From a virus, in IMG/VR virus record IMGVR_UViG_3300031576_000142, positions 1 to 40,964 of that record: a stretch of 40,964 nt of DNA, one strand, 5' to 3'. Below, piece after piece: positions 16,837 through 33,212 of the stretch. Under the pieces are notes generated by a model that was not told where the DNA came from, did no database searches, and saw only the letters and a program-made list of their open reading frames with translations. The first letter of the stretch is position 1; every line of letters begins with the position of its first letter. The translations under genes were made by a program, and so were the position numbers.

Positions 16837-16842
16837 GGTGGA

Positions 16843-16872: not shown

Positions 16873-16891
16873 GTTTTCCGACGGTGGGAGA

Positions 16892-18481: not shown

Positions 18482-18509
18482 TTGACAGGCGGCGCACATC
18501 TGCTATACT
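18482..18509 (+). promoter_or_regulatory. Strong promoter of the rightward operon
   Basis: TTGACA (18482-18487), 16-base spacer and TATACT (18504-18509). The -10 context (CTGCTATACT) matches that of the promoter at 30311-30339. It drives the only rightward unit, starting with a structured leader. Confidence 0.8.
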
Positions 18510-18512
18510 TAA

Positions 18513-18598
18513 GGTGTTCATGGCTCGTAGTTCTTTTGTTTTCAGCCCTCGTCGGGGAAGTAGTCTAAGACTACGGCCATGAACACCGACGGGGGCTG
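18513..18598 (+). ncRNA. Pseudoknot leader of the DUF932 operon
   Basis: Two long stems are interleaved. Stem A is 12 perfect bp: GGTGTTCATGGC (18513-18524) with GCCATGAACACC (18576-18587). Stem B is up to 13 bp with one G-U: CAGCCCTCGTCGG (18543-18555) with CCGACGGGGGCTG (18586-18598), sharing two bases with A. The order A-B-A'-B' makes an H-type pseudoknot or two exclusive folds. A small hairpin GTAGTC-TAA-GACTAC (18560-18574) fills the middle loop. It begins within a few bases of the predicted transcription start and lies about 50 bases before the ATG of the first gene. It is not a riboswitch class that I recognise. Confidence 0.65.
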
Positions 18599-18645
18599 TC
18601 TATTTACCGTCTTAGAATCAAGTAGAATAAAATAAAGGGGGTAAC

Positions 18646-19620
18646 ATGCATAACGTGAACTCGATGTTTTACACCGGCGCCGAACCTTGGCACGGTCTAG
18701 GGCGCAAGCTGGAAGGCGTAGCCACCGCGGCGCAGGCCATAGAGGCGGCGGGGCTGGGTTGGGGAGTGGTCAAAGAGCCGCTGTATCTCAAGGACGGCCG
18801 TTTGGTGCCTGCGGCTTACGCTACCATCCGAGAAGATTCTAAAGACGTTCTCGGAGTGGTGGGGGAGGTCTACCGGCCGTTGCAAAACCGGGAGGCGTTC
18901 TCCTTCTTCGATGCCGTGGTAGGCTCCAAAGAGGCCATCTACCACACGGCGGGAGCGCTTGGGGCTGGTGAGCGGGTCTGGATCCTCGCCAAGCTCCCGG
19001 GCCAGGTGCGCGTGGTGGGCGATGATGTGGCGGATAAGTTCCTGCTGCTCACTAACACGCATGACGGCACGTCCGCGGTCCAAGTGATGTTCACTCCTAT
19101 AAGGGTGGTTTGTCAGAACACCTTGAATGTGGCGGTGGGCGATGGGAGCCGTAAGCAAAAGATCAGGCATACTGCGGCCATGGGGCTGCGGGTGGCTGAT
19201 GTGCGCGAGGGGCTGGGGATCATTCAAGAGCGCTTCCGTATCTTCGAGGAAGCGGCCCAAGCTATGACCCGGGTGCAGGTCCGTGGCGCCACTTGGGAAG
19301 CCTTCCTGAAGTCTACCGGCCTGCTCCCCAAAGAAGCGTCCTTGATTGGCCCTGGGCGCCGGGAGCTGTCGGGCCGGGCCCTCAACATCATTGAGGAAGT
19401 CTCGGGGATGTTCGAGCACGGCAAGGGAAACAACCTGCCGGGCGTCAAGGGTACGGCCTGGGCGGCCTTCAATGCCGTGACCGAGTATGTAGACCATACC
19501 CGGAGCTCACGCGGGCAGGGCCGGGACAAGCTGGAGTCTAGGGCGGCCTCGCTGCTCTTCGGATCGGGGGCGGACTTGAAGCAGAAAGCCTGGGATTCCG
19601 CGTTGGCCTTGCTGGGCTAG
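18646..19620 (+). CDS. DUF932 (phage/plasmid-like) protein, 324 aa
   Basis: The N-terminus 'MFYTGAEPWHGLG' (from residue 7) followed by 'YRPLQNREAFSFFDAVV', 'LLTNTHDGTSAVQVMFTPIR' and 'VVCQNTLNVA' is the signature of the DUF932 / phage-plasmid-like protein family. The length is normal. The biochemical role of the family is not established; members occur in phages and plasmids, often near replication or recombination genes. It is the first gene of the only rightward operon, behind a strong promoter and a pseudoknotted leader, so it is probably expressed early. Confidence 0.85.
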   Translation: MHNVNSMFYTGAEPWHGLGRKLEGVATAAQAIEAAGLGWGVVKEPLYLKDGRLVPAAYATIREDSKDVLGVVGEVYRPLQNREAFSFFDAVVGSKEAIYHTAGALGAGERVWILAKLPGQVRVVGDDVADKFLLLTNTHDGTSAVQVMFTPIRVVCQNTLNVAVGDGSRKQKIRHTAAMGLRVADVREGLGIIQERFRIFEEAAQAMTRVQVRGATWEAFLKSTGLLPKEASLIGPGRRELSGRALNIIEEVSGMFEHGKGNNLPGVKGTAWAAFNAVTEYVDHTRSSRGQGRDKLESRAASLLFGSGADLKQKAWDSALALLG

Positions 19621-19632
19621 GGCCCTGAGTAG

Positions 19633-19660
19633 TGGCCCTGGGGAGCAATCCCCGGGGCCA
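19633..19660 (+). other. Intercistronic hairpin
   Basis: An 11-bp stem with one G-U pair (TGGCCCTGGGG 19633-19643 with CCCCGGGGCCA 19650-19660) and a 6-base loop. It has no U-tract, so it is not a standard terminator; it may stabilise the upstream message or lower downstream expression. An alternative pairing with CCCAGGGCC just downstream exists. Confidence 0.55.
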
Positions 19661-19698
19661 TGACCCAGGGCCTTTAACGGGCCAGGGAGGTAAACACA

Positions 19699-19878
19699 AT
19701 GGGGGACAAGCTGGACAAGCTCATAGAGCAATCGTACTACCGGCAAGGCGCCGGGGTGCAAATCAACATCATGGACATAGGCCGGCTCTTCAAGGACGTG
19801 CGGGAGGCGGTCTCAAAGGGCCAGGAGATTAACGGGGCGGTAGCTGCGGCCATCGTGCGCTATGCGGTCAAGGCATGA
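19699..19878 (+). CDS. Small hypothetical protein, 59 aa
   Basis: ATG 19699 with GGGAGG eight bases upstream; TGA at 19876-19878. The product begins MGDKLDKLIEQSYYRQGAGV and continues with 'INIMDIGRLFKDVREAVSKG', compact and helical. It overlaps the next gene by ATGA, as in the other operons here. The pattern fits a small protein co-expressed with DUF932; function is unknown. Confidence 0.7.
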   Translation: MGDKLDKLIEQSYYRQGAGVQINIMDIGRLFKDVREAVSKGQEINGAVAAAIVRYAVKA

Positions 19879-20210
19879 GCAAGGTTATATCTGCTGGTGG
19901 TCTCACTGAAGAGGACCGGACCATGCTCCTGGACTTGTTGCCGGAATTGAGCACGGTCTATGTTGTCAGGCGGGGGCCTTCGGAGCTGTCCTTGTTCTGC
20001 GTGTGCTCATGCGGGGCGGCTGAGGAAAACAGTGGTCAGGGGCATATCCGGGGGCTGTCGGCTAGCGTGGGGAGGCTGTTAGGCCTACGGCTAGGGCCCA
20101 AGGGTGGGGTTATCATCCGGCCGCCCTATGGGCCGGCGCAGTACCTAGCCGAGCGGATATCCTTCTGCCTGCATGGCCAGGAAAACAAGCTGTGCGGGGA
20201 GTGGCTATAG
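19875..20210 (+). CDS. Hypothetical protein, 111 aa
   Basis: It starts by ATGA overlap with the 59-aa gene. The sequence is mixed alpha/beta, 'LTEEDRTMLLDLLPELSTVYVVRRG' then 'LFCVCSCGAAEENSG', with a CxCxC cluster and a C-terminal 'AERISFCLHGQENKLCG'. The cysteines suggest metal binding, but the spacing is not a standard finger. It belongs to the DUF932 operon. No family is recognised. Confidence 0.65.
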   Translation: MSKVISAGGLTEEDRTMLLDLLPELSTVYVVRRGPSELSLFCVCSCGAAEENSGQGHIRGLSASVGRLLGLRLGPKGGVIIRPPYGPAQYLAERISFCLHGQENKLCGEWL

Positions 20211-20224
20211 CTGGACTCTGACAA

Positions 20225-20252
20225 GGCCCCAGGGGCGCCTGCTCCTGGGGCC
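20225..20252 (+). other. Intercistronic hairpin
   Basis: A perfect 9-bp stem GGCCCCAGG (20225-20233) with CCTGGGGCC (20244-20252). It has no U-tract on either strand. It resembles the hairpin at 19633-19660 in base composition and position after a gene. Confidence 0.5.
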
Positions 20253-20279
20253 GAGCCAGGGCCCAGCCTTGGGTTATCT

Positions 20280-20474
20280 ATGCGACTGATCCACAAGCAG
20301 CCTTGCCCGTATTCGCCATTTTCCTACGAGCCCTGGAACCATAACCCCAGGGCTTTATGTGGGCGCATCTGTAATTGTCCTTTAGGTTGGCCGATGTATG
20401 AAGATGATTTGATGCGGCTTGGAGACTTACCCACATGTGGAAAACCTGTGGATAAGTCGGCACATGCTAATTGA
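20280..20474 (+). CDS. Possible small Cys-rich protein, 64 aa
   Basis: ATG 20280 with a poor ribosome site. The product has several cysteines ('CPYS', 'CGRICNC', 'CGKP') and Pro/Trp, compatible with a small zinc-binding fold. Its 3' end overlaps the DnaA-box-like and inverted-repeat sequences at 20436-20488, so the frame may be fortuitous. Confidence 0.4.
   Translation: MRLIHKQPCPYSPFSYEPWNHNPRALCGRICNCPLGWPMYEDDLMRLGDLPTCGKPVDKSAHAN
20436..20455 (+). promoter_or_regulatory. Tandem DnaA-box-like sites
   Basis: TGTGGAAAA (20436-20444) and TGTGGATAA (20447-20455) are two direct 9-mers two bases apart. The second is the exact complement of the consensus DnaA box TTATCCACA. They sit beside the inverted repeat at 20464-20488 and near the integrase. 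They may bind host DnaA for replication, or be chance matches in the end of a small frame. Confidence 0.5.
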
Positions 20475-20488
20475 CGACAAATTAGCAT
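20464..20488. other. Inverted repeat, candidate attP core site
   Basis: Two perfect 9-bp arms, ATGCTAATT (20464-20472) and AATTAGCAT (20480-20488), flank a 7-base centre (GACGACA). This matches the layout of tyrosine-recombinase core sites (inverted arms around a 6-8-bp crossover region). It lies between the rightward operon and the integrase terminator. Nearby direct repeats (AAGTCGGCAC at 20454 and 20528; CTAAAAGCCA at about 20513 and 20537) could be arm-type sites. It could instead be an operator. Confidence 0.5.
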
Positions 20489-20544
20489 ATTCTGACATTG
20501 CCGTTTCCAACCTAAAAGCCAGCTTTAAAGTCGGCACTAAAAGC

Positions 20545-20582
20545 CAAAAGAAAACGGCCCGCTTCTCACCCTAGCGGGCCGT
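20545..20582 (-). terminator. Intrinsic terminator after the integrase operon
   Basis: Minus strand: a perfect 9-bp stem ACGGCCCGC / GCGGGCCGT (20574-20582 with 20554-20562), then TTTTCTTTT. It ends the leftward integrase operon and prevents it running into the convergent rightward unit. Confidence 0.8.
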
Positions 20583-20608
20583 CTGAACTCCGATCTTAAA
20601 GCCGGCAG

Positions 20609-20818
20609 TTAAGGAGCCGCTGTTGCTGGCTCATCGGGTGCAGGCTTGGGGACGACAAGAACAACTCCAGCAGCGGAAGCGTCCTTGAGGTTGTCGAAAT
20701 GGGTAAGTTTGTTCCCCTTCGAGTCTAGGACCTCGTAAAAGCCGGCATACTCATTCCACTTGACACGCACTTCACGTCCGTTCTCCTTCAACTTACCCTT
20801 CATCTCTTTATAACCCAT
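20609..20818 (-). CDS. Small hypothetical protein, 69 aa
   Basis: ATG 20818, overlapping the integrase 3' end by 11 bases. Lys/Glu-rich N-terminal half (MGYKEMKGKLKENGREV), then 'WNEYAGFYEVLDSKGNKLTHF' with a beta-hairpin look, and a Pro/Ala-rich tail. It is the last gene before the terminator. It could be an excisionase-like accessory factor given the position, but no helix-turn-helix is evident. Confidence 0.6.
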   Translation of the reverse strand: MGYKEMKGKLKENGREVRVKWNEYAGFYEVLDSKGNKLTHFDNLKDASAAGVVLVVPKPAPDEPATAAP

Positions 20819-21788
20819 GTTGGTTTACCTCTTTTTGAATTGCCTTAACTACCGCTTCAGCTGGATTGGATTGGAAGCATGCGGCGGCTCTTAGATATAC
20901 GTCAGTGGTTCTTATGTCGGAATGTCCCATGGCCTCGGCTATGGCTTCCCGCTGCGCCCCTCCGATCAGCGACATGATAGCAAAAGTGTGGCGCAAAGCG
21001 TGTGCGGATCGGCCGGCCTGCTTCAACCCTGAGCGCCTTAGATAAAAGTCGGTGATGCGTTGTATGGATCGGGTAGTAAGATGGGGATTCCCTGGAACAT
21101 CTAGGCGGCAAAATAAGGCTTGGGTGGGAGTATCTAGCCCGCGGTAGTCAAGCCACTGGATGATGGCCCCGCGTGGGGGTCCAGATAGATATGATCTGCG
21201 GCTCTTTTCTCCTTTGCCTAGGACCTCTAGGTAATTGAATTCAGCTGTGTCCAAGTCTACCAGCCTTAAGTCCGCCACTTCGCTTACTCTGAGCCCCTGA
21301 AACAGCATGGTCATAATCAGAGCCCGATCGCGCGCGCTTACCGCCCCTCGGCCAGAAGGCAAGGATTCAAGTAGCTTCCTCGCTTCCTCCGAGCTTAGAG
21401 CCTTTCGTAGTATGCCCAGATTGGCTGGGGTAAGTTCCCGCGGCGCCTTGACCCCAAGGGCGGGATTATCCGCCCGCATCCCCCATCGCTGTAGAGCTTT
21501 GTAAAGAACTCTGACGGCAAGTAGCCGCAGCTCGATCGTGCCTTTTTTGTAACCCTTGGAGATAAGCCACTTGCGATAGGCTTCTATGTTGTCGAAGGTG
21601 CAAGACTCCGGGGGCAAGTCCTGGAATCTACACCATCCAAAATAGCAAGCTAGGCCCTCTCGATAGGAATTCAAGGTATGCCGACTGGCGTCACCGTTGG
21701 CTACGCTCAGACGCAGGAAACGCTCAAAGAGCTCTTGGCAATTCAGTGGTTGTATCTCGGCCTTTATTATCTGCCCGATTTGACTCAT
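20808..21788 (-). CDS. int: Tyrosine recombinase / integrase, 326 aa
   Basis: It has an N-terminal SAM-like core-binding domain (about 15-110, with 'HTLNSYREGLACYFGWC') and a C-terminal catalytic domain. Catalytic residues visible are R167 (QGLRVSEV), K195 (GKGEK), H263 and R266 (HALRHTF), H289 (GHSD) and Y298 (TDVYLR). All are present, so it should be active. The length is typical of XerC/D-like and phage integrases. It lies in a leftward operon after the GroES-like gene and ends near an inverted repeat that could be its core site. It could mediate integration or resolve genome multimers. Confidence 0.92.
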   Translation of the reverse strand: MSQIGQIIKAEIQPLNCQELFERFLRLSVANGDASRHTLNSYREGLACYFGWCRFQDLPPESCTFDNIEAYRKWLISKGYKKGTIELRLLAVRVLYKALQRWGMRADNPALGVKAPRELTPANLGILRKALSSEEARKLLESLPSGRGAVSARDRALIMTMLFQGLRVSEVADLRLVDLDTAEFNYLEVLGKGEKSRRSYLSGPPRGAIIQWLDYRGLDTPTQALFCRLDVPGNPHLTTRSIQRITDFYLRRSGLKQAGRSAHALRHTFAIMSLIGGAQREAIAEAMGHSDIRTTDVYLRAAACFQSNPAEAVVKAIQKEVNQHGL

Positions 21789-21800
21789 GCTATCCTCCGA

Positions 21801-22136
21801 CTATCGCTTATCGTGACAACGGCAGCCGCATTGTCCAGCCTCACCAAGCACGGCTAGGACTTGGTTGCTCTCCATCAGGATTTCTGCTTCTGCATCGCTG
21901 GTGCTCTTGACTTCAGTACCTGAGAAGCGCCTGAACAATATCCGGTCTCCTGATCTTACTGGATTCTGGATCTGACGCATGTCGGATCCGCGACGCCCTG
22001 GGCCGGCCGCCAGCACATCACCCATAAAAGCTGGCGTCCTGGCGGATTCTGGGATAATTAGCCCGCTTTTGGTAACTCTATCCCTGCCCCAAGGACGCAC
22101 CAGGAGGTTGTCTGCTAGCGGGATTAAGTTGTCCAT
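21801..22136 (-). CDS. GroES-like co-chaperonin, 111 aa
   Basis: The pattern 'PLADNLLVRPWGRD', then 'KSGLIIPESA' (about 23-32, the mobile loop that docks on GroEL), 'GDVLAAGPGR' (39-48), 'VRSGDRILFRRFSGTEV' (60-76) and 'ILMESNQVLAVL' (87-98) follows the Cpn10/GroES fold from end to end. A short Cys-rich tail follows ('CGCRCHDKR'). No GroEL partner is in the genome, so it would cap the host chaperonin, as T4 gp31 does for capsid folding. It is transcribed with integrase rather than with capsid genes, which is unusual. Confidence 0.85.
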   Translation of the reverse strand: MDNLIPLADNLLVRPWGRDRVTKSGLIIPESARTPAFMGDVLAAGPGRRGSDMRQIQNPVRSGDRILFRRFSGTEVKSTSDAEAEILMESNQVLAVLGEAGQCGCRCHDKR

Positions 22137-22166
22137 GAAATTTGTGGGGCCACAAGGGCCCCGGTG

Positions 22167-22481
22167 CTATTTGGTCTTGAAGCCCTCCTTCTGGCGGATC
22201 ACGCTAAGTTTTTCGTGTCTCCTGACTACGAAATCATACTTTCTCTGGCTCTCAGGACTCTGAACCGTCAGCGTGCTCCGACCCTCTTCTTTCATCGCCT
22301 TCTTGACTTCCTCGGCCTTCTTCTCCAGGCGCTCATATCTGGAGTCGATATCCTCCTTGTCGGAGATATAGTTCAGAGCTAGCTTTCCCGCTCCTGTGGG
22401 CTGGGGAGTCCCGGGCAGCTCCTGCTGCTTGGCCCCGTTGGATTTGCTCTTGCTCGCCTTATCTGCTGTTGCGGTAGACAT
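22167..22481 (-). CDS. Hypothetical charged helical protein, 104 aa
   Basis: The likely start is ATG 22481 (MSTATADKASKSKSNGAK), preceded by GGAGGA; an upstream Met at 22520 is possible. It has a low-complexity polar N-terminus, then a long charged helix ('YERLEKKAEEVKKAMKEEG') and 'RKYDFVVRRHEKLSVIRQKEG'. No family is recognised. It lies between a nuclease-like gene and the GroES-like gene. Confidence 0.65.
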   Translation of the reverse strand: MSTATADKASKSKSNGAKQQELPGTPQPTGAGKLALNYISDKEDIDSRYERLEKKAEEVKKAMKEEGRSTLTVQSPESQRKYDFVVRRHEKLSVIRQKEGFKTK

Positions 22482-22501
22482 GATTCCTCCTGCGTCTTGG
22501 T

Positions 22502-22957
22502 TTACAGGCATGTCGGCCATTCTCCGGGCCTAAGCCTGAATATTGTTTCGTGCCAGGTGCCTTCGGGCTGTAGTGCCTCAACCTTAATCCCGCCCATGAT
22601 CCCGTCTTGCCGGCGCCAGAGCTGAACCTTTTGCCCGCTGAAATTCCATGGGATCTGCTGGATCTCGTCTTTCTTGCGTCCTGTAACATGATCCAAGGTG
22701 GCTTGCACGAAAAGGGTTTGACACTTATTTGGATGGATCCCAATTAGGTCTATGCACCCAAAAAAATCCGCACTCAATGATATGGGCCTTATCTTGTGGG
22801 TTTTCTTGTCTTTGAGCCAGAGCACCCGCTGTCCTGCCTTCTGGACTCGATAGCCTAGAGTCACCAAAAAATCCTCCAACTTCTTTTCAAAACGCTTGCC
22901 AGCAGCTCGGTTGCCGGCTCTAGGATTTTTCTTTTCAGTGGTATTGATTTCTGCCAT
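22502..22957 (-). CDS. Nuclease-like protein (divergent PD-(D/E)XK / resolvase type), 151 aa
   Basis: A basic N-terminus is followed by 'GKRFEKKLEDFLVTLGYRVQKAG' (acidic residue in the first helix), 'FFGCIDLIGI' (acidic residue at the end of a strand) and 'TLFVQATLDHVTGRKKDE'. This strand order resembles Hjc/VRR-NUC PD-(D/E)XK nucleases, but the usual E-x-K is replaced by a Q-A, so activity is uncertain. It may be a Holliday-junction resolvase or restriction-like protein. The assignment is tentative. Confidence 0.5.
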   Translation of the reverse strand: MAEINTTEKKNPRAGNRAAGKRFEKKLEDFLVTLGYRVQKAGQRVLWLKDKKTHKIRPISLSADFFGCIDLIGIHPNKCQTLFVQATLDHVTGRKKDEIQQIPWNFSGQKVQLWRRQDGIMGGIKVEALQPEGTWHETIFRLRPGEWPTCL

Positions 22958-22961
22958 GTTA

Positions 22962-23453
22962 TTATTCCTTCATCAGGTATCGACGGGAAGTCTTGACTTT
23001 CGACACGTTGTCTATGCAATGGTTTCTGGCTTTCTTGTAGGCTGCCTCGAAAATCTTCTTGTATTCCACGATCTCGGCCGGCGTCATGGGCCATTTGTCG
23101 GCTCTGGCTATCTCGGTTTCTTTTTGTTCTGGGAATTTCAACCCACAAAGCCAGCCGTCATGAGCAGCTGAGCAACGATGGCATACCCGGATGGGTATAA
23201 AAACTTGCCCCTCAAATCCATAAGTCCCGATGTTGGTCAGGCCCAGCCACCAGTGTTTATTTTTGCTGTTCTGAGAATCGTCTATGATGATATAACAAGT
23301 GGTCTTTCCGCAGCCTTTGAAATTTATCCCGCCATCACCACAGGAAGGCTCAACTATCCCGGATCCGTATTTCTCACTTAGTTTCTCAAAATATTCGTGG
23401 GTCTCGTTTTCATCCGTCCAGGTCACGCCGCCAACGCAAATCATTTGCGCCAT
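22962..23453 (-). CDS. Zinc-binding hypothetical protein, 163 aa
   Basis: The likely start is ATG 23453 (MAQMICVGGVTWTDENE), with AAGAGG upstream, overlapping the previous gene by 13 bases. Cysteines occur as 'EPSCGD..', 'FKGCGKTTC' and 'RVCHRCSAAH..GWLCG', compatible with one or two zinc sites. The C-terminal half is helical and basic. Function is unknown; zinc-finger proteins are common in phage early operons. Confidence 0.6.
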   Translation of the reverse strand: MAQMICVGGVTWTDENETHEYFEKLSEKYGSGIVEPSCGDGGINFKGCGKTTCYIIIDDSQNSKNKHWWLGLTNIGTYGFEGQVFIPIRVCHRCSAAHDGWLCGLKFPEQKETEIARADKWPMTPAEIVEYKKIFEAAYKKARNHCIDNVSKVKTSRRYLMKE

Positions 23454-23833
23454 ACCTCTTGTTTCCCGGCCAACCAATGGTCTACGTCCTTTGCGGCCCG
23501 CTCGATGCTCCAGCCTTTCCAGTTCTCTCTTTGACAACGGTCCTGGAGCTCGCTTAGATACTCTTTGGCCACGTCCACGGGATCATCGAGCTTGCGAAGG
23601 AAGTTCAGGATCCGCTTCGCCGCGGCCATGGCTCTCGCCTTATAGGTGCCGTTCCAAGTCGGGATAAGATCAAACCCGCGCAGCTTCTTGTAGTGCTCCA
23701 CTACCGCCATGAGCTGACCATAGCCAGCCTTAAACTCGGCAAGGACTGTGTGTTCTCCGGTCCAGGTGTTCACGGTTATTTTGAAGGTGTGACTGCATTC
23801 AGGACATTTTGGTTCGATGTTGAAGAGCTGCAT
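23441..23833 (-). CDS. Zinc-ribbon-containing hypothetical protein, 130 aa
   Basis: The N-terminus 'MQLFNIEPKCPECSHTFKI' has a CPxC knuckle; the remainder is helical and basic ('ARAMAAAKRILNFLRKL', 'DRCQRENWKGWSIERAAKDVDHWLAGK'). It is the first gene of the operon that runs to the integrase, behind a leader of about 390 bases. Function is unknown. Confidence 0.65.
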   Translation of the reverse strand: MQLFNIEPKCPECSHTFKITVNTWTGEHTVLAEFKAGYGQLMAVVEHYKKLRGFDLIPTWNGTYKARAMAAAKRILNFLRKLDDPVDVAKEYLSELQDRCQRENWKGWSIERAAKDVDHWLAGKQEVWRK

Positions 23834-24140
23834 CCGGGTATCTCCGCAAGTAATAATTGGGGTAATACGCTTTTGCCTTGGATCTGCCCTGCGGGGCGGC
23901 CAGAAGAGACTTAAGCAGGGCAGATCGAAGGGAAAATGTCTCGGCCTGTGGGCCGGCAGCGGACCTTTCTACTGCCCTTGGCTTTTCTCTGTGATGTAGA
24001 GCTAAGATGATCCAAGGCGGGGCGGACAGGTTGTACCCATTTTATCGCGTCCGTCGGTCCCCTTAATGCCTGTAGTGCTCGAAAGGACAGGCGGCCTAGT
24101 TCGGTGCCATTTGTTTGATAGCGCGACAGCCGAGCGCGCT
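23834..24140 (-). other. Long gene-free leader of the integrase/GroES operon
   Basis: About 300 bases have no credible gene. A perfect 12-bp inverted repeat GATCTGCCCTGC / GCAGGGCAGATC (23881-23892 with 23915-23926) encloses 22 bases. Part of its loop (GAGAC 23906-23910 and GGCC 23898-23901) can pair with 23938-23942 and 23943-23946, again in interleaved order. Smaller hairpins AGCGCG/CGCGCT (about 24120-24140) and GCCTGT/ACAGGC (about 24069-24093) are also visible. The message therefore has an extended structured 5' region. Confidence 0.5.
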
Positions 24141-24217
24141 GAAAATAAAAGGGGCTTCGAGAGGCAACCCCGGCTAGGGGATCTCGAAGCCCGCAATCTG
24201 GAACTACAGCCGGGGTT
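24141..24217 (-). ncRNA. Pseudoknot with terminator-like 3' stem
   Basis: RNA from the promoter at 24230-24258. Stem A is a perfect 10 bp (24208-24217 with 24166-24175; arm AACCCCGGCT). Stem B is a perfect 11 bp (24182-24192 with 24152-24162; arm GGGCTTCGAGA). The order in RNA is A-B-A'-B' with loops of 15, 6 and 3 bases. B' is followed by C then TTTTATTTT, so stem B alone would be an intrinsic terminator. This looks like an attenuator whose fold decides whether the operon is read. Confidence 0.7.
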
Positions 24218-24229
24218 ACCATGGGTGAA

Positions 24230-24258
24230 ATATTACTCTAAGTCTTTCTGCTTGTCAA
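24230..24258 (-). promoter_or_regulatory. Promoter of the integrase/GroES operon
   Basis: Minus strand: TTGACA (24253-24258), 17-base spacer, TAATAT (24230-24235). The predicted start is about 24222-24226, just before stem A of the pseudoknot. Confidence 0.75.
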
Positions 24259-24303
24259 GTTTATCGACGGAGGATATAACATCAGGCTTTGATAGCCCAG
24301 GAA

Positions 24304-26348: not shown

Positions 26349-26360
26349 GCCCTCGGCCCT

Positions 26361-26561: not shown

Positions 26562-27364
26562 TTAACAACGGCCTCCCGCTCGACAAAGAACCCCGCGAAC
26601 TTGTCCGCTCCATAGGCCCCGCGTGTCAATTCAATGATTCCGCGAACCGTGATTTTCTCGGGCGTCTCGCGCTGCTCAAGCCAGGTCTTAACTCCTTGTT
26701 CACAAGCTCCGGTGATGATGCGGTAGGCCCGGATGGCGTCCCGCTTCGATATCTCGCGGTCTAGGGTCCAAGACTTGAACTCGGAAGTGTCCCTTGATCC
26801 AATCTTGTAGAGCAAGCCGTCCCGTGCTTCGGCTAGGGTCTTCCCGTGCGAGAAATCGTCCCCGTTCGTGATGAGATACGAAATCTCCGTCTTTCCGCAG
26901 ACGATAACTCGCGACACAGAGCCGCGCTGAGAAACGATCCTGGCGAGGATGCCGTCGGCGAACGAGTAGCCAGAGGCGGCAAAGGCAGACAGAAGCATGG
27001 CGCGGGATATTGCTATGGCTTCAGACCTGGCCCTGGTATCGTTCTGCTCCGTTGCGATCTTCGCGCGCTCGGCGCTCGTCAGGCTCCCGAGGTGCAGGTA
27101 CCCGCCGATGGACTGCGGCAGCTTGAGACCGTCGGCGCTCGTCAGGCCCGCGAGGTGCAGGTACCCGCCGATGGACTGCGGCAGCTTGAGACCGTCGGCG
27201 CTCGTCAGGCTCGCGAGGTGCAGGTACCCGCCGATCTTGACCAATCGTGGAAACGCCTTGGTCATTTTAACGGCGTTGGCATCGAGATTCCCGGTTATCT
27301 CGGTCCAGTCGTAAACGACGCCGGGCTTAGCGACAAGATTTCCGATAAATAGTTCTTTTTTCAT
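26558..27364 (-). CDS. Hypothetical protein with 21-residue repeats, 268 aa
   Basis: ATG 27364 (MKKELFIGNLVAKPG) has GGAG upstream; a longer frame reaches 27493 but lacks a better site. Near the N-terminus are about three copies of a 21-residue unit containing 'IGGYLHLAGLTSADGLKLPQ', like the short beta-solenoid or leucine-rich repeats seen in many metagenomic phage proteins. The rest is alpha/beta, with 'LTRGAYGADKFAGFFVER' near the C-terminus. Function is unknown; a binding scaffold is plausible. Confidence 0.7.
   Translation of the reverse strand: MKKELFIGNLVAKPGVVYDWTEITGNLDANAVKMTKAFPRLVKIGGYLHLASLTSADGLKLPQSIGGYLHLAGLTSADGLKLPQSIGGYLHLGSLTSAERAKIATEQNDTRARSEAIAISRAMLLSAFAASGYSFADGILARIVSQRGSVSRVIVCGKTEISYLITNGDDFSHGKTLAEARDGLLYKIGSRDTSEFKSWTLDREISKRDAIRAYRIITGACEQGVKTWLEQRETPEKITVRGIIELTRGAYGADKFAGFFVEREAVVK
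27072..27235 (-). repeat. 63-bp tandem repeat inside a coding region
   Basis: Two nearly identical 63-bp units (27072-27134 and 27135-27197) and a partial third are in frame with the 268-aa protein and encode its 21-residue repeats. Near-identity at DNA level indicates recent duplication. Confidence 0.85.
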
Positions 27365-27365
27365 T

Positions 27366-27530
27366 TTATTCTCCTCTTGCGCTTGGTTCGTTCCTCTCCC
27401 GGTGCGGCTCCTTCTTCTCGGCCTTTCGGTTCGCGTAGCAAACGGAACAGCCGCAGAGCGCAAGGCACTTGTCGTAACCCCTTCGATGCTCAAAACAATC
27501 CGAAAGGTTCCAAGTCGTTCTACAGATCAC
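27366..27530 (-). CDS. Small Cys-rich protein, 54 aa
   Basis: GTG 27530 overlaps the preceding stop as GTGA, and the TAA at 27366 is directly followed by the ATG of the next gene. The product contains 'CLALCGCSVCYANRK', a cluster of four cysteines, then a highly charged tail. This coupling style is the rule in this operon, which supports it. Metal binding is likely; function is unknown. Confidence 0.55.
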   Translation of the reverse strand: MICRTTWNLSDCFEHRRGYDKCLALCGCSVCYANRKAEKKEPHRERNEPSARGE

Positions 27531-27739
27531 TTGCCCGCCTTTTTCTGGCCCCGGCGAAGGGAATCCCGGAGCATGTCTTGCCCTTCATCTACGATAGTCC
27601 TCTGGATTGGACAATACTCAAAGGCGCAGTCTGCTTCGCCATCGACTGGAGTCTGAATATCGCAGTAGCGCTGGCGCTTTGCGCTGCATCGGGTGCGGCC
27701 TTTGATCCAGGCTTTTCGGGCGTCGAATCTATCTGGCAT
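27527..27739 (-). CDS. Small hypothetical protein, 70 aa
   Basis: I place the start at ATG 27739 (MPDRFDARKAWIKGRTR), near the stop of the upstream gene; a Met four residues earlier (27751) is equally possible. It is basic, with 'YCDIQTPVDGEADCAFEYCP' suggesting a cysteine pair. It belongs to the tightly packed accessory operon. Confidence 0.55.
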   Translation of the reverse strand: MPDRFDARKAWIKGRTRCSAKRQRYCDIQTPVDGEADCAFEYCPIQRTIVDEGQDMLRDSLRRGQKKAGK

Positions 27740-28022
27740 CGGTCGGCCCATTTGGATTATGTTCCACAGTATCCTTCGCACTCTTGGGCGCGGCCTTGTC
27801 ACATTGGCGGCAGATTGAACGCTGGCAGTCTTGGACCTCTTGCTTAAAACCCGTCGCCAGCATCCCGCAGAGAGTAGCCGGGAATGCGTACTTTTCGCCC
27901 GACCCATCGAACAGATGATCAACGCGGCTCCTGGCCCTGTCGTCGTAGTTCGGATAGTGCGGGTGCGTGGCAGAACAGACGATGAGATCGTGATAGCGTC
28001 GAAGCTCGTATTGTCGGATCAT
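27729..28022 (-). CDS. Hypothetical protein with CxxC, 97 aa
   Basis: ATG 28022 by ATGA overlap. 'MIRQYELRRYHDLIVCSATHPHYPNYDDRAR' is followed by 'CQRSICRQCDKAAPKSA'. The cysteine arrangement suggests a zinc site. No family is recognised. Confidence 0.6.
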   Translation of the reverse strand: MIRQYELRRYHDLIVCSATHPHYPNYDDRARSRVDHLFDGSGEKYAFPATLCGMLATGFKQEVQDCQRSICRQCDKAAPKSAKDTVEHNPNGPTDAR

Positions 28023-28159
28023 CTTCCCTCCCCGGCGATCTCCAGCAGCTTCGCCTCAAGCAGCCTGGCGTATGCATCAAGGACGTGGATTTGCTCAGGC
28101 ACCCCGATTCCCGCTGTCTCACAGACGGCGATCCAGGCGCGGATTTGGTCGATGGTCAT
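28019..28159 (-). CDS. Small hypothetical protein, 46 aa
   Basis: ATG 28159 has GAGGAGG nine bases upstream, which decides this start over longer frames. The product 'MTIDQIRAWIAVCETAGIGV' is fully helical and ends 'KLLEIAGEGR'. It overlaps the next gene by ATGA. Confidence 0.6.
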   Translation of the reverse strand: MTIDQIRAWIAVCETAGIGVPEQIHVLDAYARLLEAKLLEIAGEGR

Positions 28160-28352
28160 GCCGGTTTGCCTCCTCTGCCGTGGTCCGATCATATTCAAGC
28201 CCGAAGAATCTCCACCCACGAGGCCCCCCAAGCATCCGTATTGAGATCGGCCAGGAGTGGGCGATCCAGAAACCGAGATGCAGGACTTCGTTCGGCCACA
28301 CAAATCGCAAACACACGCGGAGCCCTCCGACGCGCCAGGGGAGAAGTATCAT
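28119..28352 (-). CDS. Small hypothetical protein, 77 aa
   Basis: ATG 28352 overlaps the upstream stop. 'MILLPWRVGGLRVCLRFVW' is followed by aromatic-rich strands ('LHLGFWIAHSWPISIRMLGG', 'WRFFGLEYDR') and a charged tail. Similar Trp-rich short proteins are frequent in phage early operons. It overlaps the following gene by about 40 bases. Confidence 0.6.
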   Translation of the reverse strand: MILLPWRVGGLRVCLRFVWPNEVLHLGFWIAHSWPISIRMLGGPRGWRFFGLEYDRTTAEEANRHDHRPNPRLDRRL

Positions 28353-28525
28353 TTGATCTTCGGATAGCCCCCGGTGATCGGAGGGAACACGACGCGGCTC
28401 TCAACCTTATCGCATCTGCACGAAAGCTCGCAAACGCGAGAGCCGTCCTCCAAATCGAATACGCGGGACTCCGGGATGCAGCCGATCAGGCGGCATGGAA
28501 GAAGGCTCAACCACCAGGAGATCAT
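28349..28525 (-). CDS. Small Cys-containing protein, 58 aa
   Basis: ATG 28525 (ATGA with the upstream stop) to TGA 28349 (again ATGA with the next start). Product 'MISWWLSLLPCRLIGCIPES', then 'CELSCRCDKVESRVVFPPI'. Coupling at both ends and four or five cysteines support it being real. Function is unknown. Confidence 0.6.
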   Translation of the reverse strand: MISWWLSLLPCRLIGCIPESRVFDLEDGSRVCELSCRCDKVESRVVFPPITGGYPKIK

Positions 28526-28716
28526 CCGATCTTCTCCAGGCCTTCCTCGATTCGGATTCGCGCCTTGTGTAACTTGAGAACCACATCGTCGCAGTTGTTG
28601 AGAGTATCCAGGGCAAAACGAAGTGCGGAACGAGCGGAATTAATCCGGTCACGAAGCGCAGCGATATCGTTCTGCTCGCGCTGGCGTTTGAACGCCTCAG
28701 TTCTTGGATCAGGCAT
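28522..28716 (-). CDS. Small helical protein, 64 aa
   Basis: ATG 28716. It is charged, probably all-helical, 'MPDPRTEAFKRQREQNDIAA' then 'SARSALRFALDTLNNCDDVV', and may form a coiled coil. It overlaps both neighbours. Confidence 0.6.
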   Translation of the reverse strand: MPDPRTEAFKRQREQNDIAALRDRINSARSALRFALDTLNNCDDVVLKLHKARIRIEEGLEKIG

Positions 28717-29053
28717 TCTCCCCTTCCACTTCGTACAAGTGCATAGTCGTCGGATGCAGATTAACGTACTCGGCCTTGGGCGGTAGTATCATCGCCATGT
28801 AGGCCTGATCGGGACAGAGGTCATAGCGGGCTTGCGTGATCTCCTCCCAAGTGGGAATCCGGCCCGGAGCTGGCCCACCAATGGGGGATAGGATTGAATT
28901 GGACCGATGGCTTATGCTCAGATGCCAGCCAAGATTCCCGCCACGCATGAATGGTTCGCGGCCTACGAACACGGTCAAGTGCCCATCCTCAAGATCGGCC
29001 TGAAATACGCGCAAGTGATCACGGGGCTTGAGTTCCTTCCAAGTGATAGTCAT
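28709..29053 (-). CDS. Conserved phage hypothetical protein (DUF7694-like), 114 aa
   Basis: 'MTITWKELKPRDHLRVFQAD', 'GNLGWHLSISHRS', 'GRIPTWEEITQARYDLCPDQ' and 'PPKAEYVNLHPTTMHLYE' match a phage protein family I remember as DUF7694-like, usually found in early regions. Biochemical function is not known. It overlaps the upstream repeat protein by ATGA. Confidence 0.7.
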   Translation of the reverse strand: MTITWKELKPRDHLRVFQADLEDGHLTVFVGREPFMRGGNLGWHLSISHRSNSILSPIGGPAPGRIPTWEEITQARYDLCPDQAYMAMILPPKAEYVNLHPTTMHLYEVEGENA

Positions 29054-29664
29054 GCAGGATCGGCCTCCTCCGCCGCCCTCGCCTCAATGAACGCCATCGC
29101 CGCCTCGTTGCTGGCGTAGAGGTTCGGCAAGGGCGCATCGGGGCGGGACTTAAGGAGGATTAGGGATGCCGCCTGGGGAGTGCCGCCAAACGCCTCCTCG
29201 GCCTCGTAGCCGGCCTTGCCGCAAAGATGCACCGTCCAGCCGCCAAGGCAATGAACCGTCTTGCAAGAATGCCACGAACTCATTTTCAATTCACAGTCAT
29301 CAGATTGAATGGCTTTAAGAATTTGAGTGTAAGGATTATCTAGCCTTGGAACACCCTCGCCAGTTCTCGCCTGCTCTATAAAATCCTTTCTCCATCCGGT
29401 CAGTCCGGACAGCTGCTCCCTGGTCAGTCCGGACAGCTGCGCCCTGGTCAGTCCGGACAGCTGCGCCCTGGTCAGTCCGGACAGCTGCGCCCCGGTCAGT
29501 CCGGACAGCTGCGCCCCGGTCAGTCCGGACAGCTGCGCCCCGGCCAGCCAGGACAGCTGCTCCCTGGTCAGTCCGGACAGCTGCGCCCTGGTCAGTCCGG
29601 ACAGCTGCGCCCTGGTCACATACGCCGGATGCGTCCCTAGAATTTCAAGTATCTTCTTGTCCAT
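29050..29664 (-). CDS. Hypothetical protein with nine 8-residue repeats, 204 aa
   Basis: ATG 29664 with AAGGAG six bases upstream. Residues 17-88 are nine tandem copies of 'T(R/G)(A/E)QLSGL', predicted as a regular helical or solenoid repeat. The rest includes 'GWRKDFIEQARTGEGVPRLD' and 'SWHSCKTVHCLGGW'. The C-terminal part resembles a known phage protein region with a His/Cys site. It is the first gene after the candidate large RNA and may be translated from a read-through transcript. Confidence 0.7.
   Translation of the reverse strand: MDKKILEILGTHPAYVTRAQLSGLTRAQLSGLTREQLSWLAGAQLSGLTGAQLSGLTGAQLSGLTRAQLSGLTRAQLSGLTREQLSGLTGWRKDFIEQARTGEGVPRLDNPYTQILKAIQSDDCELKMSSWHSCKTVHCLGGWTVHLCGKAGYEAEEAFGGTPQAASLILLKSRPDAPLPNLYASNEAAMAFIEARAAEEADPA
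29401..29616 (-). repeat. 24-bp tandem repeat (9 units) in coding sequence
   Basis: Nine in-frame 24-bp units (consensus CAGTCCGGACAGCTGCGCCC plus four bases on the plus strand). Units differ by a few substitutions. Copy number may vary between relatives. Confidence 0.85.
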
Positions 29665-29934
29665 GATGGCTCCTTGTGGCTATGTTCCGCAGTACCATCA
29701 AATCGTCGCGCAGGCCAGCTCGTGTCTCAGTCCACGGCACGAACCGGCAGGACCATTTCTCTGCGCGAGCTTCCCCGCCGCACCACGACGGTACATCGGT
29801 GGACGCTGGCCGGTATTGCACCGACTGTGCACCGCATCAAGGGCGTCCCATCCAGCGGGTAGGCGGTATTGGCATCGCCCTGCTTTGCCAGTGGCGATTC
29901 TTCGTCGCCACGCCGCAACGTCCAAAATTGACTA

Positions 29935-30015
29935 TGGGAGGAAGTCCGATTTGAACGGACACATGTACGTCCATCATCTGGCCGGCCACAGGGTTTCGTT
30001 CCCCAACGTCCTCCC
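29935..30015 (-). ncRNA. tRNA-like element (acceptor and T-arm only)
   Basis: On the minus strand, GGGAGGA (30015-30009) pairs perfectly with TCCTCCC (29942-29936). Just inside is a perfect T-arm, GTCCG-TTCAAAT-CGGAC (29960-29944), with the usual 7-base T-loop. One unpaired base separates the two helices. Between them I cannot fold a normal D-arm or anticodon arm with U33, so it is not a standard tRNA. It is probably a tRNA-like domain of the larger RNA or a decayed tRNA. Confidence 0.5.
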
Positions 30016-30231
30016 ACAGTTTTCTAAGCATGCCAGACCTAGTCTGGAAGGTTACGCTCCCAGTCCGTAGCTCCCGGGAGACTTCTCTTGGCATACAGAC
30101 CATGCTTATAGCGAGAAGTGCAGGGGCTGGCATCGCACCGCAGTACGCCAGCCGTGGGAGGTAGCGCAATGAAGGGCGCCGCGGCTTCACCCAGGACCCG
30201 GTAGAAGTCCCAGCCTGCACTTCAATCGAAG

Positions 30232-30300
30232 GGCACCCAGCCTGACCACCCGCGAAGGTAGGGACTGGGTGCCGAAATAGAGTCTGGCTTTCGCGGGTGG
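30232..30300 (-). ncRNA. Pseudoknot at the 5' end of the large RNA
   Basis: Stem A is a perfect 11 bp (30290-30300 with 30246-30256; arm CCACCCGCGAA). Stem B is a perfect 9 bp (30265-30273 with 30232-30240; arm GGCACCCAG). RNA order A-B-A'-B', loops 16, 8 and 5 bases. It starts within about four bases of the predicted transcription start. Confidence 0.7.
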
Positions 30301-30310
30301 CCACAAGATG

Positions 30311-30339
30311 AGTATAGCAGACGGTCAGGATTTTGTCAA
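30311..30339 (-). promoter_or_regulatory. Near-consensus promoter of the large RNA
   Basis: Minus strand: TTGACA (30334-30339), 17-base spacer, TATACT (30311-30316) in the context CTGCTATACT. The -35 lies inside the end of the 65-aa gene. Predicted start about 30304. Confidence 0.85.
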
Positions 30340-30522
30340 TGACTGGGACTTAAATCTTTTCTCCAAAGCCGCTATCTTATCATCGCGCTCTTTGATATCC
30401 CAGAGCAAGACTAGCATAGTGTCTTTCATGTTCTTTATGGCTTCGGGGCCAAAGCAAAGAATACGCGCTTGCGGGTCAAGTGCATCAAGCCGCTTCCAAA
30501 TGGCTAAATGCCATTCCGTCAC
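30325..30522 (-). CDS. Small hypothetical protein, 65 aa
   Basis: ATG 30522 by ATGA overlap with the nuclease gene. 'MTEWHLAIWKRLDALDPQAR', a middle hydrophobic helix ('MKDTMLVLLWDI') and a charged C-terminus ('ALEKRFKSQSLTKS') that may be a short coiled coil. It is the last gene of the recombination operon. Confidence 0.6.
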   Translation of the reverse strand: MTEWHLAIWKRLDALDPQARILCFGPEAIKNMKDTMLVLLWDIKERDDKIAALEKRFKSQSLTKS

Positions 30523-31538
30523 TTGGCTGCGGCCTCCGGGATCTTCTCGATCTCTATGACCCAGAATTCGGTTTCTTTCTTGATCGCCTTGCGGGCCTCT
30601 GGGTCTAGTAGCTTTGCGTCATAGGAAGTCCTGACGCGCTTCTTGGGCTTCACAATAAAGCGCCCGCCCACAGTCGTCTGCGGCTTCTCCTTAAACAAGT
30701 CTTTGATCGTGTCGTGGATCTCTTCAAACTCTGCGGCCTTCTCCTTGAGCTCGGTATGGCGTTCAAGAAGGTTCTCGATCTCCGGGTCTTGAAGGGTCTC
30801 GCCGCCCTCAATGACCGTTGTGGGGAGGCAAACTGCGTTGAACTGGCAGCGCCCACAAATCTTCGGGTGATAGGTGATGCGATCTGGTATTTCACCCCTG
30901 TCTTTGGCCTCCATAGACCGTTCCATGTTGCGTAATGTGAGCTCAGCATAGTCCAGATAGTTGCCTAAATAGATAGGTAGAACTTTCCAGAGTCCACCAC
31001 GATCGGTGATGAGGAAAATTCCTTCTTCTTCGTTTTGGCCGTACATGTAAAGCAGGAGCTGTCGGACATACTTTTCCAACCATTCGTCCTCAAACAGATC
31101 TTCTACACAGTTGATCCTGCGAAAAATATTCCCGTCAAGGTTCTTGATCTCGCAGGGTATGGTCTTGCCGCGAAAGCGAATTTTCCCGTCAATCTTGCCG
31201 CGGCCAAGAATTTTGTCTTTGTGCTTGATCTCTACCGTGACTTGCCCGCTCGTCACCTGGAATCCCATATCCAGGAGTTGAGCCACTATCTTCTGCTCCC
31301 AGATATTGCCGGCCTCAAAGCGGGCTTGAAGGAATTCGTTGATCGGATTGCGCTTGTCCCCCTCCACCATGGAATAATAGTTGTGCCTGGTGCAGGTGTG
31401 AACATCGGACAAGTAGAGGTAGTCCCTCTTGTTCTGCGGCCGGATCTGCTGGCGCAAATGCTGTAGCCTGGCATCTAGTATTTCCTGCGCCAGTTGATCG
31501 GCTATCGGGGTGTCTTGTGCGGTTGTCGTGTCTGCCAT
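30519..31538 (-). CDS. Cas4/Dna2-like PD-(D/E)XK exonuclease with Fe-S cysteines, 339 aa
   Basis: Nuclease core: D117 (GRGKIDGKI), E130-x-K132 (CEIKN) and the Q160...Y164 motif (RQLLLYMYG), with an acidic helix residue E81. Four cysteines with Cas4/AddB spacing, Cys49 (HTCTRH) and C228, C231, C237 (CGRCQFNAVC), would hold an iron-sulphur cluster. It is preceded, two genes earlier, by a candidate annealing protein, forming an exonuclease-plus-annealase recombination pair like lambda Exo/Bet in role. The C-terminal about 100 residues are helical ('HTELKEKAAEFEEIHDTIKD'). Catalytic residues appear intact. Confidence 0.8.
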   Translation of the reverse strand: MADTTTAQDTPIADQLAQEILDARLQHLRQQIRPQNKRDYLYLSDVHTCTRHNYYSMVEGDKRNPINEFLQARFEAGNIWEQKIVAQLLDMGFQVTSGQVTVEIKHKDKILGRGKIDGKIRFRGKTIPCEIKNLDGNIFRRINCVEDLFEDEWLEKYVRQLLLYMYGQNEEEGIFLITDRGGLWKVLPIYLGNYLDYAELTLRNMERSMEAKDRGEIPDRITYHPKICGRCQFNAVCLPTTVIEGGETLQDPEIENLLERHTELKEKAAEFEEIHDTIKDLFKEKPQTTVGGRFIVKPKKRVRTSYDAKLLDPEARKAIKKETEFWVIEIEKIPEAAAK

Positions 31539-31855
31539 GAAGCCTCCTGAGTAGTGCGCCCAAATAGGCGCTTGATACGGTCGAAGAAACTGGGCTCCTG
31601 CTTGTTCTCCCTATCGAAAGACTCGGCCGTTTGTTCCTTGGCTTTCCTGAGCCTATAGATGCAGATGTCATGCGCTTGTCGATCATCTGGAAGCCTCAAG
31701 AAGGGGCTGGTAAGGCGCACCACAATCTTTTTCCCGTTATGTTGCTTGCGTTCCTCGAACCATGTTGACCCACGGCCACATTCAGAGCACAGGATAGGCT
31801 GCCCCTTGTGCTCGAACCTGGCCGGGTTTGGTTGCTTGCGGCGCCAGCGGCTCAT
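31502..31855 (-). CDS. Small basic protein with zinc knuckle, 117 aa
   Basis: ATG 31855 forms a TAATG overlap with the preceding stop, which decides the start over longer forms. 'MSRWRRKQPNPARFEHKG', then 'CSECGRGSTWFEER', a CxxC pair, and a basic C-terminus ('FFDRIKRLFGRTTQ'). It overlaps the nuclease gene by 37 bases. It may help the recombination proteins bind DNA. Confidence 0.65.
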   Translation of the reverse strand: MSRWRRKQPNPARFEHKGQPILCSECGRGSTWFEERKQHNGKKIVVRLTSPFLRLPDDRQAHDICIYRLRKAKEQTAESFDRENKQEPSFFDRIKRLFGRTTQEASWQTRQPHKTPR

Positions 31856-32745
31856 TAATTCTCCGCTACCCCTGCTGCGATCCAAGTGCAGAGGTTTTCG
31901 TAGTCTTTGTCTTTCCAGGAAACGCGGGCAAGGTGAGACTCGCCGGCCTCATCAACGGTGTAGGATAGTTTTGCCTTAAGATATTCCTTCACGTCTGCGA
32001 TATCCACGCCAGCAGACTTCATGATGGTATAGACACGCTTCACTTGGGCTTCGGAAATGGCAGGTTTGGAAGCGTTGTTGGAAGCGGGTTTGGCTGGAGC
32101 CGGCTTGGCTTCACCATCCACCATCTTAGTTAGATCCTGAACGAGAGTGGCTGGATGGGCTATATCATCATCGTCAATCTCCGTGGTGAAGTTCTCGGAA
32201 GCGCGGCAGGCAAGGATTGCTCCACCGCTAATAGCCCGCTTCTGGGCCATGCGGTTCAGGGTATTCGGGAGGTTGTAGATATCCGGGTTGTCGATGCGGT
32301 AGAGTGTGTCGCCATCCTTCTCTTTGGTTTCCAGAGAATCCTTGTCCAGGCCCCGCGGGATGCGATATTCCTTTACCCAGATGTAGCGGTACTTGGTTTC
32401 AAGGGAGTTGGCCGAGCCAATACACTCTGCAACCACGGTCCCGCTGCGCTTATGAAACACGATGGCGCGGAATTCGTAGTTGAAAAATGGCTTGTCCCAA
32501 TTAACGATGGTGCCGGTTGTGGGCTCCAAACGAATTCCTAGACCGTTGAAGAATAGGAGTTTTTCCGTTCCAGGTTTGAGAAGGGACTTCTTCTTAGTTC
32601 CGGGGATCACGCCATAGTCGATGCCTTCTCTCATTTGAGAGGCGATGAAATTGTTGAGCTGCTTCTGCGCCTCAATCGCTTGTGTAAGATCCCGAGCTCC
32701 AGTTACTGCGATGCCAAGCTGTTGTTCTGCCAATTCATTCGACAT
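31855..32745 (-). CDS. Candidate single-strand annealing / recombination protein, 296 aa
   Basis: 'MREGIDYGVIPGTKKKSLLK' and 'GTEKLLFFNGLGIRLE' (about 37-72), followed by 'YNLPNTLNRMAQKRAISGGAILA', are features of a phage protein type that commonly lies beside PD-(D/E)XK nucleases and that I take to be a recombination mediator or single-strand annealing protein. The C-terminus has a separate domain ('ISEAQVKRVYTIMKSAGVD'), like the tail of RecT/Erf-type proteins. Its position in the recombination operon supports this. Direct homology was not tested. Confidence 0.65.
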   Translation of the reverse strand: MSNELAEQQLGIAVTGARDLTQAIEAQKQLNNFIASQMREGIDYGVIPGTKKKSLLKPGTEKLLFFNGLGIRLEPTTGTIVNWDKPFFNYEFRAIVFHKRSGTVVAECIGSANSLETKYRYIWVKEYRIPRGLDKDSLETKEKDGDTLYRIDNPDIYNLPNTLNRMAQKRAISGGAILACRASENFTTEIDDDDIAHPATLVQDLTKMVDGEAKPAPAKPASNNASKPAISEAQVKRVYTIMKSAGVDIADVKEYLKAKLSYTVDEAGESHLARVSWKDKDYENLCTWIAAGVAEN

Positions 32746-32757
32746 GGTATGTTCTCC

Positions 32758-33105
32758 TTACTGCGATTCGGTTAGGTTCTCCGGGTTTACCACCCGATAG
32801 GTGTGAGTCTGCAAAGCCACTTGTTTGCCGGCCATGAGAAGATAGGCCTGAAGAACGGGGATGATGTTCCCTTGACGATCTTTGCGGTAGCTAACTACTT
32901 GGGATAGGATTGCCTGGCAGAAGCGGCACTTGGAAAACATGTAGAAGGGCGGGCCCGGGGTCTTGCTCCGCATGCGGACTTCGCGGAGCATGTGCTTGCG
33001 GTCTTTGCCGCACTTGAAAAGCTGATCGTCATGGTCGGCGTCGGAAAATTTAGTGACTAAGGGCTCATCTGAATTGAGGCTGTCGATAACTTCTTCGTCG
33101 CTCAT
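32758..33105 (-). CDS. Zinc-ribbon hypothetical protein, first gene of the recombination operon, 115 aa
   Basis: The start is uncertain. ATG 33105 (MSDEEVIDSLNSDEP) lies 9 bases after a strong leader stem and has no Shine-Dalgarno; a TTG at 33168 would add 21 residues but would lie within the structured leader. 'FKCGKDRKHMLREVRM' and 'FSKCRFCQAIL' give a Cys...CxxC set typical of zinc ribbons, with a strand-rich C-terminus. Translation may depend on the fold of the leader. Confidence 0.6.
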   Translation of the reverse strand: MSDEEVIDSLNSDEPLVTKFSDADHDDQLFKCGKDRKHMLREVRMRSKTPGPPFYMFSKCRFCQAILSQVVSYRKDRQGNIIPVLQAYLLMAGKQVALQTHTYRVVNPENLTESQ

Positions 33106-33114
33106 GAGAGGAAG

Positions 33115-33212
33115 GGGCGGCCCACTATGCCTGGGCAGGGAGGGAGTGAGCCGCCCGAAAGGGCGCAATATGGTGCGGAGTTGACGCCGAACTGTTTGCC
33201 CATCTGCCCAGG
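33115..33212 (-). ncRNA. Pseudoknot leader of the recombination operon
   Basis: Stem A is a perfect 9 bp (33204-33212 with 33130-33138; arm CCTGGGCAG). Stem B is 12 bp with one mismatch (33145-33156 with 33115-33126; arm GGGCGGCTCACT). RNA order A-B-A'-B', with loops of 47, 6 and 3 bases. An alternative 5-bp hairpin CGCCC-TTTC-GGGCG (33152-33165) competes with B. B' ends nine bases before the ATG. Confidence 0.65.

Follow-up and report, generated by a model that had tools for sequence, protein, structure and literature searches.

The stretch of DNA analysed here (the window) is one whole IMG/VR virus record, IMGVR_UViG_3300031576_000142, of 40,964 bases. A direct terminal repeat of 229 bases with one mismatch lies at 1-229 and 40736-40964, and because the two ends repeat over this length, the window is probably a complete, circularly closed genome. 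Its gene products include portal, capsid and terminase proteins, a tyrosine integrase, a C5 methylase, an exonuclease and a DUF932 protein. Nine promoter-like sites are present, five of which are strong sigma-70 promoters followed by intergenic leaders (plus strand, 18482; minus strand, 16872, 24258, 30339 and 33253). The leaders behind these promoters are the subject of this study, as four of them carry two long stems that interleave in the order A-B-A'-B'. These four, with their promoters and one adjoining gene, are listed below (promoters from a promoter scan, stems from a stem scan, C and C' of leader 1 read from the sequence; bp, base pairs; nt, nucleotides).

18482-18509, plus: sigma-70 promoter TTGACA-16-TATACT of the DUF932 unit
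18513-18524, plus: leader 1, stem A, 12 bp (17 bp with a bulged inner extension)
18543-18555, plus: leader 1, stem B, 13 bp, one G-U
18564-18571, plus: leader 1, possible third stem C, TCTAAGAC, partner 18609-18616
18576-18587, plus: leader 1, A'
18586-18598, plus: leader 1, B', two bases in common with A', then TCTATTTA
18609-18616, plus: leader 1, C', GTCTTAGA
18646-19620, plus: DUF932 gene, downstream of leader 1 (Pfam PF06067, E 5e-60)
24230-24258, minus: promoter TTGACA-17-TAATAT
24208-24220, minus: leader 2, stem A, 13 bp
24182-24192, minus: leader 2, stem B, 11 bp
24163-24175, minus: leader 2, A', preceded by L2, TCCCCT (24181-24176)
24152-24162, minus: leader 2, B'
24141-24151, minus: leader 2, U-run CTTTTATTTTC, immediately 3' of B'
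30311-30339, minus: promoter TTGACA-17-TATACT
30290-30303, minus: leader 3, stem A, 14 bp
30263-30273, minus: leader 3, stem B, 11 bp
30243-30256, minus: leader 3, A', preceded by L2, CCTACC (30262-30257)
30232-30242, minus: leader 3, B'
33226-33253, minus: promoter TTGACT-16-TATAAT of the recombination unit
33204-33212, minus: leader 4, stem A, 9 bp
33145-33156, minus: leader 4, stem B, 12 bp
33130-33138, minus: leader 4, A', preceded by L2, CCCTCC (33144-33139)
33115-33126, minus: leader 4, B', with an ATG at most about 12 nt beyond

When both strands of the entire window were scanned for interleaved stems of at least 9 bp, perfect or with G-U pairs, the strong A-B-A'-B' pairs (9-14 bp) were found at these four sites only. 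The leaders span 18513-18598 on the plus strand (leader 1) and 24220-24152, 30303-30232 and 33212-33115 on the minus strand (leaders 2 to 4). In this order, the gap between A and B (L1) is 18, 15, 16 and 47 nt, that between B and A' (L2) is 20, 6, 6 and 6 nt, and that between A' and B' (L3) is -2, 0, 0 and 3 nt, so that the common geometry is an A' abutting B', with an L2 of 6 nt in three of the four. Stem A starts 4-14 nt past the -10 box, at about +1 to +7, and the transcribed strand carries the longest stems in all four cases. The stem sequences are unrelated among the leaders, and A and B share none. In leader 1, TCTAAGAC and GTCTTAGA may form a third interleaved stem. After leader 3, about 640 bases extend to the next clear gene at 29664 (29665-30303, minus strand); this region looks non-coding and has several long complementary segments. 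It was considered as a large structured RNA and rejected, its fold energies being ordinary except at the ends.

The first-pass annotation had named the four sites and had proposed that the shape, and not the sequence, is kept at the heads of transcription units, both of which are borne out. Their placement by promoters also holds, but "just downstream" is imprecise, with stem A lying near +1. At 30232 and 33115 the stems stand but the strand is corrected: the transcripts are on the minus strand, because the promoters are at 30339-30311 and 33253-33226 of that strand. Of "four of about seven promoters", the four remains, but the denominator becomes the five strong intergenic ones.

Shuffled sequence, a check that the annotation had also put forward, does not reproduce the leaders. 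In 20 dinucleotide shuffles, comparable pairs arose 0.1 or fewer times per strand (0.1 for scores of at least 20 or 21, never for scores of at least 23), and in a promoter-anchored null only one of 5975 shuffled leaders scored at least 21 and two scored at least 20. Promoters scoring at least 10.5 of 12 were followed by such a leader in 3/3 cases in the window and 1/1 in a second phage, G001, against 5/643 at other loci and 1/643 in their shuffles. Phage G013, with 33 strong promoters, gave one weaker case.

G001 (IMGVR_UViG_3300031576_000160) belongs to a small sample of phages selected for similar proteins and promoters. In 2.29 Mb of DNA from phages and metagenome-assembled genomes related through DUF932 or the capsid, good promoters were followed by GC-rich leaders only in the window (four cases) and in G001 (two cases). 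The DUF932 protein of G001 is 64% identical to that of the window, and the head module of G001 is unrelated. One G001 leader heads a RecT-exonuclease unit (L002, plus strand, 11105). The other heads a ParB-terminase-portal unit running from ParB to capsid (L055, minus strand, 19323), and has a 17-bp stem A with one mismatch; its B' is followed by ATTTTTATTTC. The remaining DUF932 and capsid relatives, L012-L015 included, showed no comparable GC-rich leader behind a promoter. An energy ranking that was not anchored to promoters gave similar sums at GC-rich sites elsewhere, and those inspected had no promoter.

A pattern scan for TTGACA...TCTGCTATACT yielded a third phage, G011 (IMGVR_UViG_3300005613_000075). 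It has two paralogous leaders, 81% identical, in which three stems interleave in the order A-B-C-A'-B'-C' and are followed by TTTTGTTTTTG or TTTTGTTGTG. Between the copies, one G-C pair of stem A is gained or lost in both arms and another changes from A-T to C-G, while in stem C one pair changes from A-T to T-A and several become G-U. Stem B numbers 9 pairs in one of the copies, against 8 in its paralogue. Compensation, the annotation's other check, is therefore seen in stems A and C but not in stem B, which is down one pair in one copy; this covariation is that of a single sequence pair at 81% identity, no other homologous pair having been found. The covariation evidence comes from G011 and from the int-alpA RNAs described below, not from the window leaders, for which searches with the exonuclease, terminase, DUF932 and capsid proteins found no relatives near enough. 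The leader regions had no blastn match in phages and plasmids, and Rfam, at gathering and relaxed thresholds, found nothing convincing in the window. Weaker candidates, which are leads only, occur in G011 (L288, +2552 and +251), G012 and G014. In G014 (L289, about 1530) and G012 (L291, about 1500, minus strand), strong promoters are followed by terminator-like hairpins near +1, and the G014 hairpin loop is complementary to the 5' region of the RNA.

The RNA beyond the last stem is rich in U in all eight leaders, four from the window and two each from G001 and G011. T accounts for 19 of 32 of these bases in leaders 1 to 4 of the window (p 5e-6 against a 22% background) and for 42 of 64 in the full set of eight (p 8e-14 against the same background). 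Strong terminator-like U-runs are present in four of the eight, namely at 24151 in the window, in one G001 leader and in both G011 copies. The fifth strong promoter of the window, at the head of the structural operon, has a leader of a different form, and a terminator follows it before the structural genes.

16843-16872, minus: fifth promoter TTGACA-18-TACACT (promoter scan)
16801-16834, minus: fifth leader, a 12-bp hairpin from about +3 with an alternative bulged 14-bp pairing, without a clean B stem
16688-16718, minus: canonical intrinsic terminator GCCCCCGCTGG...CCAGCGGGGGT followed by CTTTCTTTT

A GC-rich hairpin with a direct U-run is strong in leader 2 and in this downstream terminator, and moderate or weak in leaders 1, 3 and 4. 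A 52-base stretch around the fifth promoter (16836-16887) and that of leader 2 (24222-24273, both minus strand) is 71% identical, CCNCCGTCGNNAAACTTGACAAGNAGAAA, and the two promoters look as if they were commonly controlled.

Computation on the DNA shows that the stems exist, interleave and lie at +1, that they recur in unrelated phages, that one pair of paralogues carries compensatory changes and that a U-rich tract follows. Recurrence in two other, unrelated phages suggests a shared, so far undescribed RNA switch at the head of phage messages. The reading that we favour, with a probability of roughly 40%, is that the leaders are cis-acting promoter-proximal attenuators, or read-through controls, with a locked 5' end. 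In this model, A would be the first 9-17 nt of the transcript and would pair with A' inside the loop of the GC-rich hairpin B:B', the base of which adjoins U-rich RNA. Direct contact between A' and B' would allow the helices to stack end to end into one pseudoknot of about 21-25 bp with the 5' end at an internal nick. Since A' exits the polymerase just ahead of B', A:A' would form before B:B' and would then determine the outcome, either closure of B:B' as a terminator or continued transcription into the operon; its effect on termination may be helping or blocking. The U-rich tracts and the canonical terminator behind the fifth promoter make promoter-proximal termination a likely theme, and stem A, which would form just before the last stem, would be its natural regulator. 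The attenuation idea of the first-pass annotation is thus partly supported, as it fits both the terminator at 16718-16688 and the U-rich RNA past the final stems.

We infer that the RNA folds as described, that B:B' terminates and that A:A' controls termination. In leaders 2 and 3 the summed hairpin energies are about 13 kcal/mol better than the nested minimum, pseudoknot penalty excluded. By a textbook A-form estimate, an L2 of 6 nt reaches about 42 Å where about 32-34 Å is needed across the deep groove of 13-14 bp, so that the stacked pseudoknot would be possible but taut. A major-groove triplex formed by the pyrimidine-rich L2 is not claimed, as L2 would run antiparallel to A'. Several observations weigh against an attenuator. 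Leader 4 is atypical, with stem A from about +7, an L1 of 47 nt and a nested fold as stable as the pseudoknot. The U tracts are weak (4/8 bases) in leaders 3 and 4 and in one G001 leader, and the U-tract test was made post hoc, on tracts already inspected. The terminator loop in B:B' would be about 19-29 nt, which is unusually long, and no trans factor or trigger turned up.

The main rival of attenuation is protection of the 5' end, in which the pseudoknot would hide the first nucleotides at the nick between the stacked helices from pyrophosphohydrolase, RNase E or RNase J, so that long phage mRNAs would persist longer. This is possible, although on balance doubtful. In most leaders stem A begins at about +1, and with A' abutting B' the 5' end would sit at the nick; such protection would require no sequence conservation and would account for the leaders without a U-run. 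Known effects of 5' hairpins include mRNA stabilisation and hindrance of RppH, and in the stabiliser hairpins of ompA, papA, aprE and bla constructs 5'-end pairing can protect the message (PMC3997798). These are single hairpins, however, with no pseudoknot and no recurrence at each unit of a genome. As a simple hairpin would suffice, the interleaving is left unexplained, as is the U tract past the last stem, and about six 5' nucleotides are unpaired in leader 4.

A small RNA of the immunity type, freed by termination or processing and acting on other phage transcripts as P4 CI/C4, IsrK and int-alpA do, is an unlikely alternative. A promoter followed by a compact structured RNA and a U-run is the layout of a small-RNA gene. 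Adjoining the other leaders of G011, a leader at L284:606-671 behind the strong promoter TTGCCA-17-TATAAT is an int-alpA RNA (RF02996, 50 bits, above the gathering score). In most of the 22 int-alpA sequences, the last loop complements RNA 3' of the outer stem with differing letters (for example CCCTGA/TCAGGG, CCCGCG/CGCGGG and ACCTTA/TAAGGT), and judging by these sequences the last loop and its 3' partner are an interleaved pseudoknot. The A-B-A'-B' topology is therefore shared with the window leaders. In contrast to them, int-alpA has a conserved core (CUAG, GAAAAG) and an extra hairpin, and its A' and B' are separated by about 7-10 nt that are partly U-rich; most of the 22 sequences have no sigma-70 promoter just upstream, and the RF02996 covariance model had no match in the window. 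The P4 CI/C4 RNAs and IsrK likewise combine a phage promoter, a structured leader, a terminator and partial read-through into an operon, read-through at IsrK yielding the operon mRNA (PMC4825925), but they have conserved sequences of their own and trans targets. With P4 as a control, Rfam models found both C4 and isrK RNAs in its leader, whereas the C4/CI antisense RNA and isrK models matched nothing in the window; P4 itself yielded no strong interleaved stems at the 5' terminus. Trans complementarity among the five window leaders was not significant except for one pair (24220 with 16836, z -3.1), genes with their own start sites lie shortly past leaders 1 and 4, and several leaders lack a clear terminator.

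The put RNA of phage HK022 works via the zinc-binding domain in beta' and suppresses terminators at a distance. An antiterminator of this type, in which the folded leader would bind the elongating RNA polymerase and make it resist later pauses and terminators, is similarly improbable here. The operons are long and co-directional, and the window leaders resemble putL and putR in position and size (66-98 nt against about 70 nt), having two long stems encoded in cis directly past an early phage promoter (PMC9378689). The put stem-loops, however, are consecutive, with sequence shared between copies and an RNA triplex included (PMC9378689), whereas the window stems interleave, with unrelated sequences and none shared between A and B; the kinship with put RNA that the annotation had raised is accordingly not upheld. 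Scanning HK022 with the leader detector used here gave no strong match, Rfam gave none in the window, and few terminators lie inside the window operons.

Translational control, in which the pseudoknot would sequester or position the ribosome-binding site, either that of the first gene or that of a leaderless frame from +1, appears quite improbable. The predicted +1 of leaders 1, 2 and 3 (18513, 24222 and 30304) and of a G001 leader (L002, 11105) coincides with or adjoins an ATG or GTG, as in leaderless frames, and AGGAGGGG lies within B' of one G001 leader. The first clear gene nevertheless begins anywhere from about 10 to about 570 nt past B', and the G011 leaders have no common start codon at +1. 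Operators acting at the DNA level were judged unlikely, since the repeats vary from promoter to promoter, imperfect pairs read as G-U on the transcribed strand, and this strand has the longest stems. Ribozymes like that of hepatitis delta virus form a pseudoknot from the RNA 5' end in the order P1-P2-P1'-P2', but the A'-B' gap of -2 to 3 nt leaves no room for P4 and the catalytic cytosine, and there was no Rfam match. Finally, short two-stem coincidences do arise in AT-rich and GC-rich DNA, but an origin by chance, or as a side effect of promoter strength and GC-rich DNA, is next to negligible and at the window level already refuted, as neither the shuffles nor the 643 other strong promoters reproduce the leaders.

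RNA families are found through conserved sequence and covariation. As the shape recurs within one genome and the sequence does not, leaders of this kind would be invisible to current libraries. We tentatively propose, short of even odds, that they may represent a new class of leader RNA in phages, one whose defining feature is topology rather than sequence. Its members would be end-stacked pseudoknots of two or three interleaved stems, formed by the 5' terminus at +1 of transcription units in unrelated phages, and would serve as a common read-through or stability switch. If so, the class would escape sequence-based family searches such as Rfam, and if read-through control is correct, the leaders would gate whole phage operons independently of protein. 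By topology, they also connect the unexplained int-alpA RNAs of integrative elements with phage promoter leaders.

Three observations lie apart from the leaders. In G001, a type II hammerhead ribozyme (Rfam, 55 bits) lies directly downstream of the DUF932 gene (L054, 5188-5121, minus strand). In the window, a 24-base repeat present ten times at 29348-29683 (minus strand) encodes an eight-residue repeat (QLSGLTRA-like) in a 204-residue protein with a weak ALTTAQ-repeat match, and a 63-base tandem repeat occurs three times at 27069-27257 with an identity of 70-97%.

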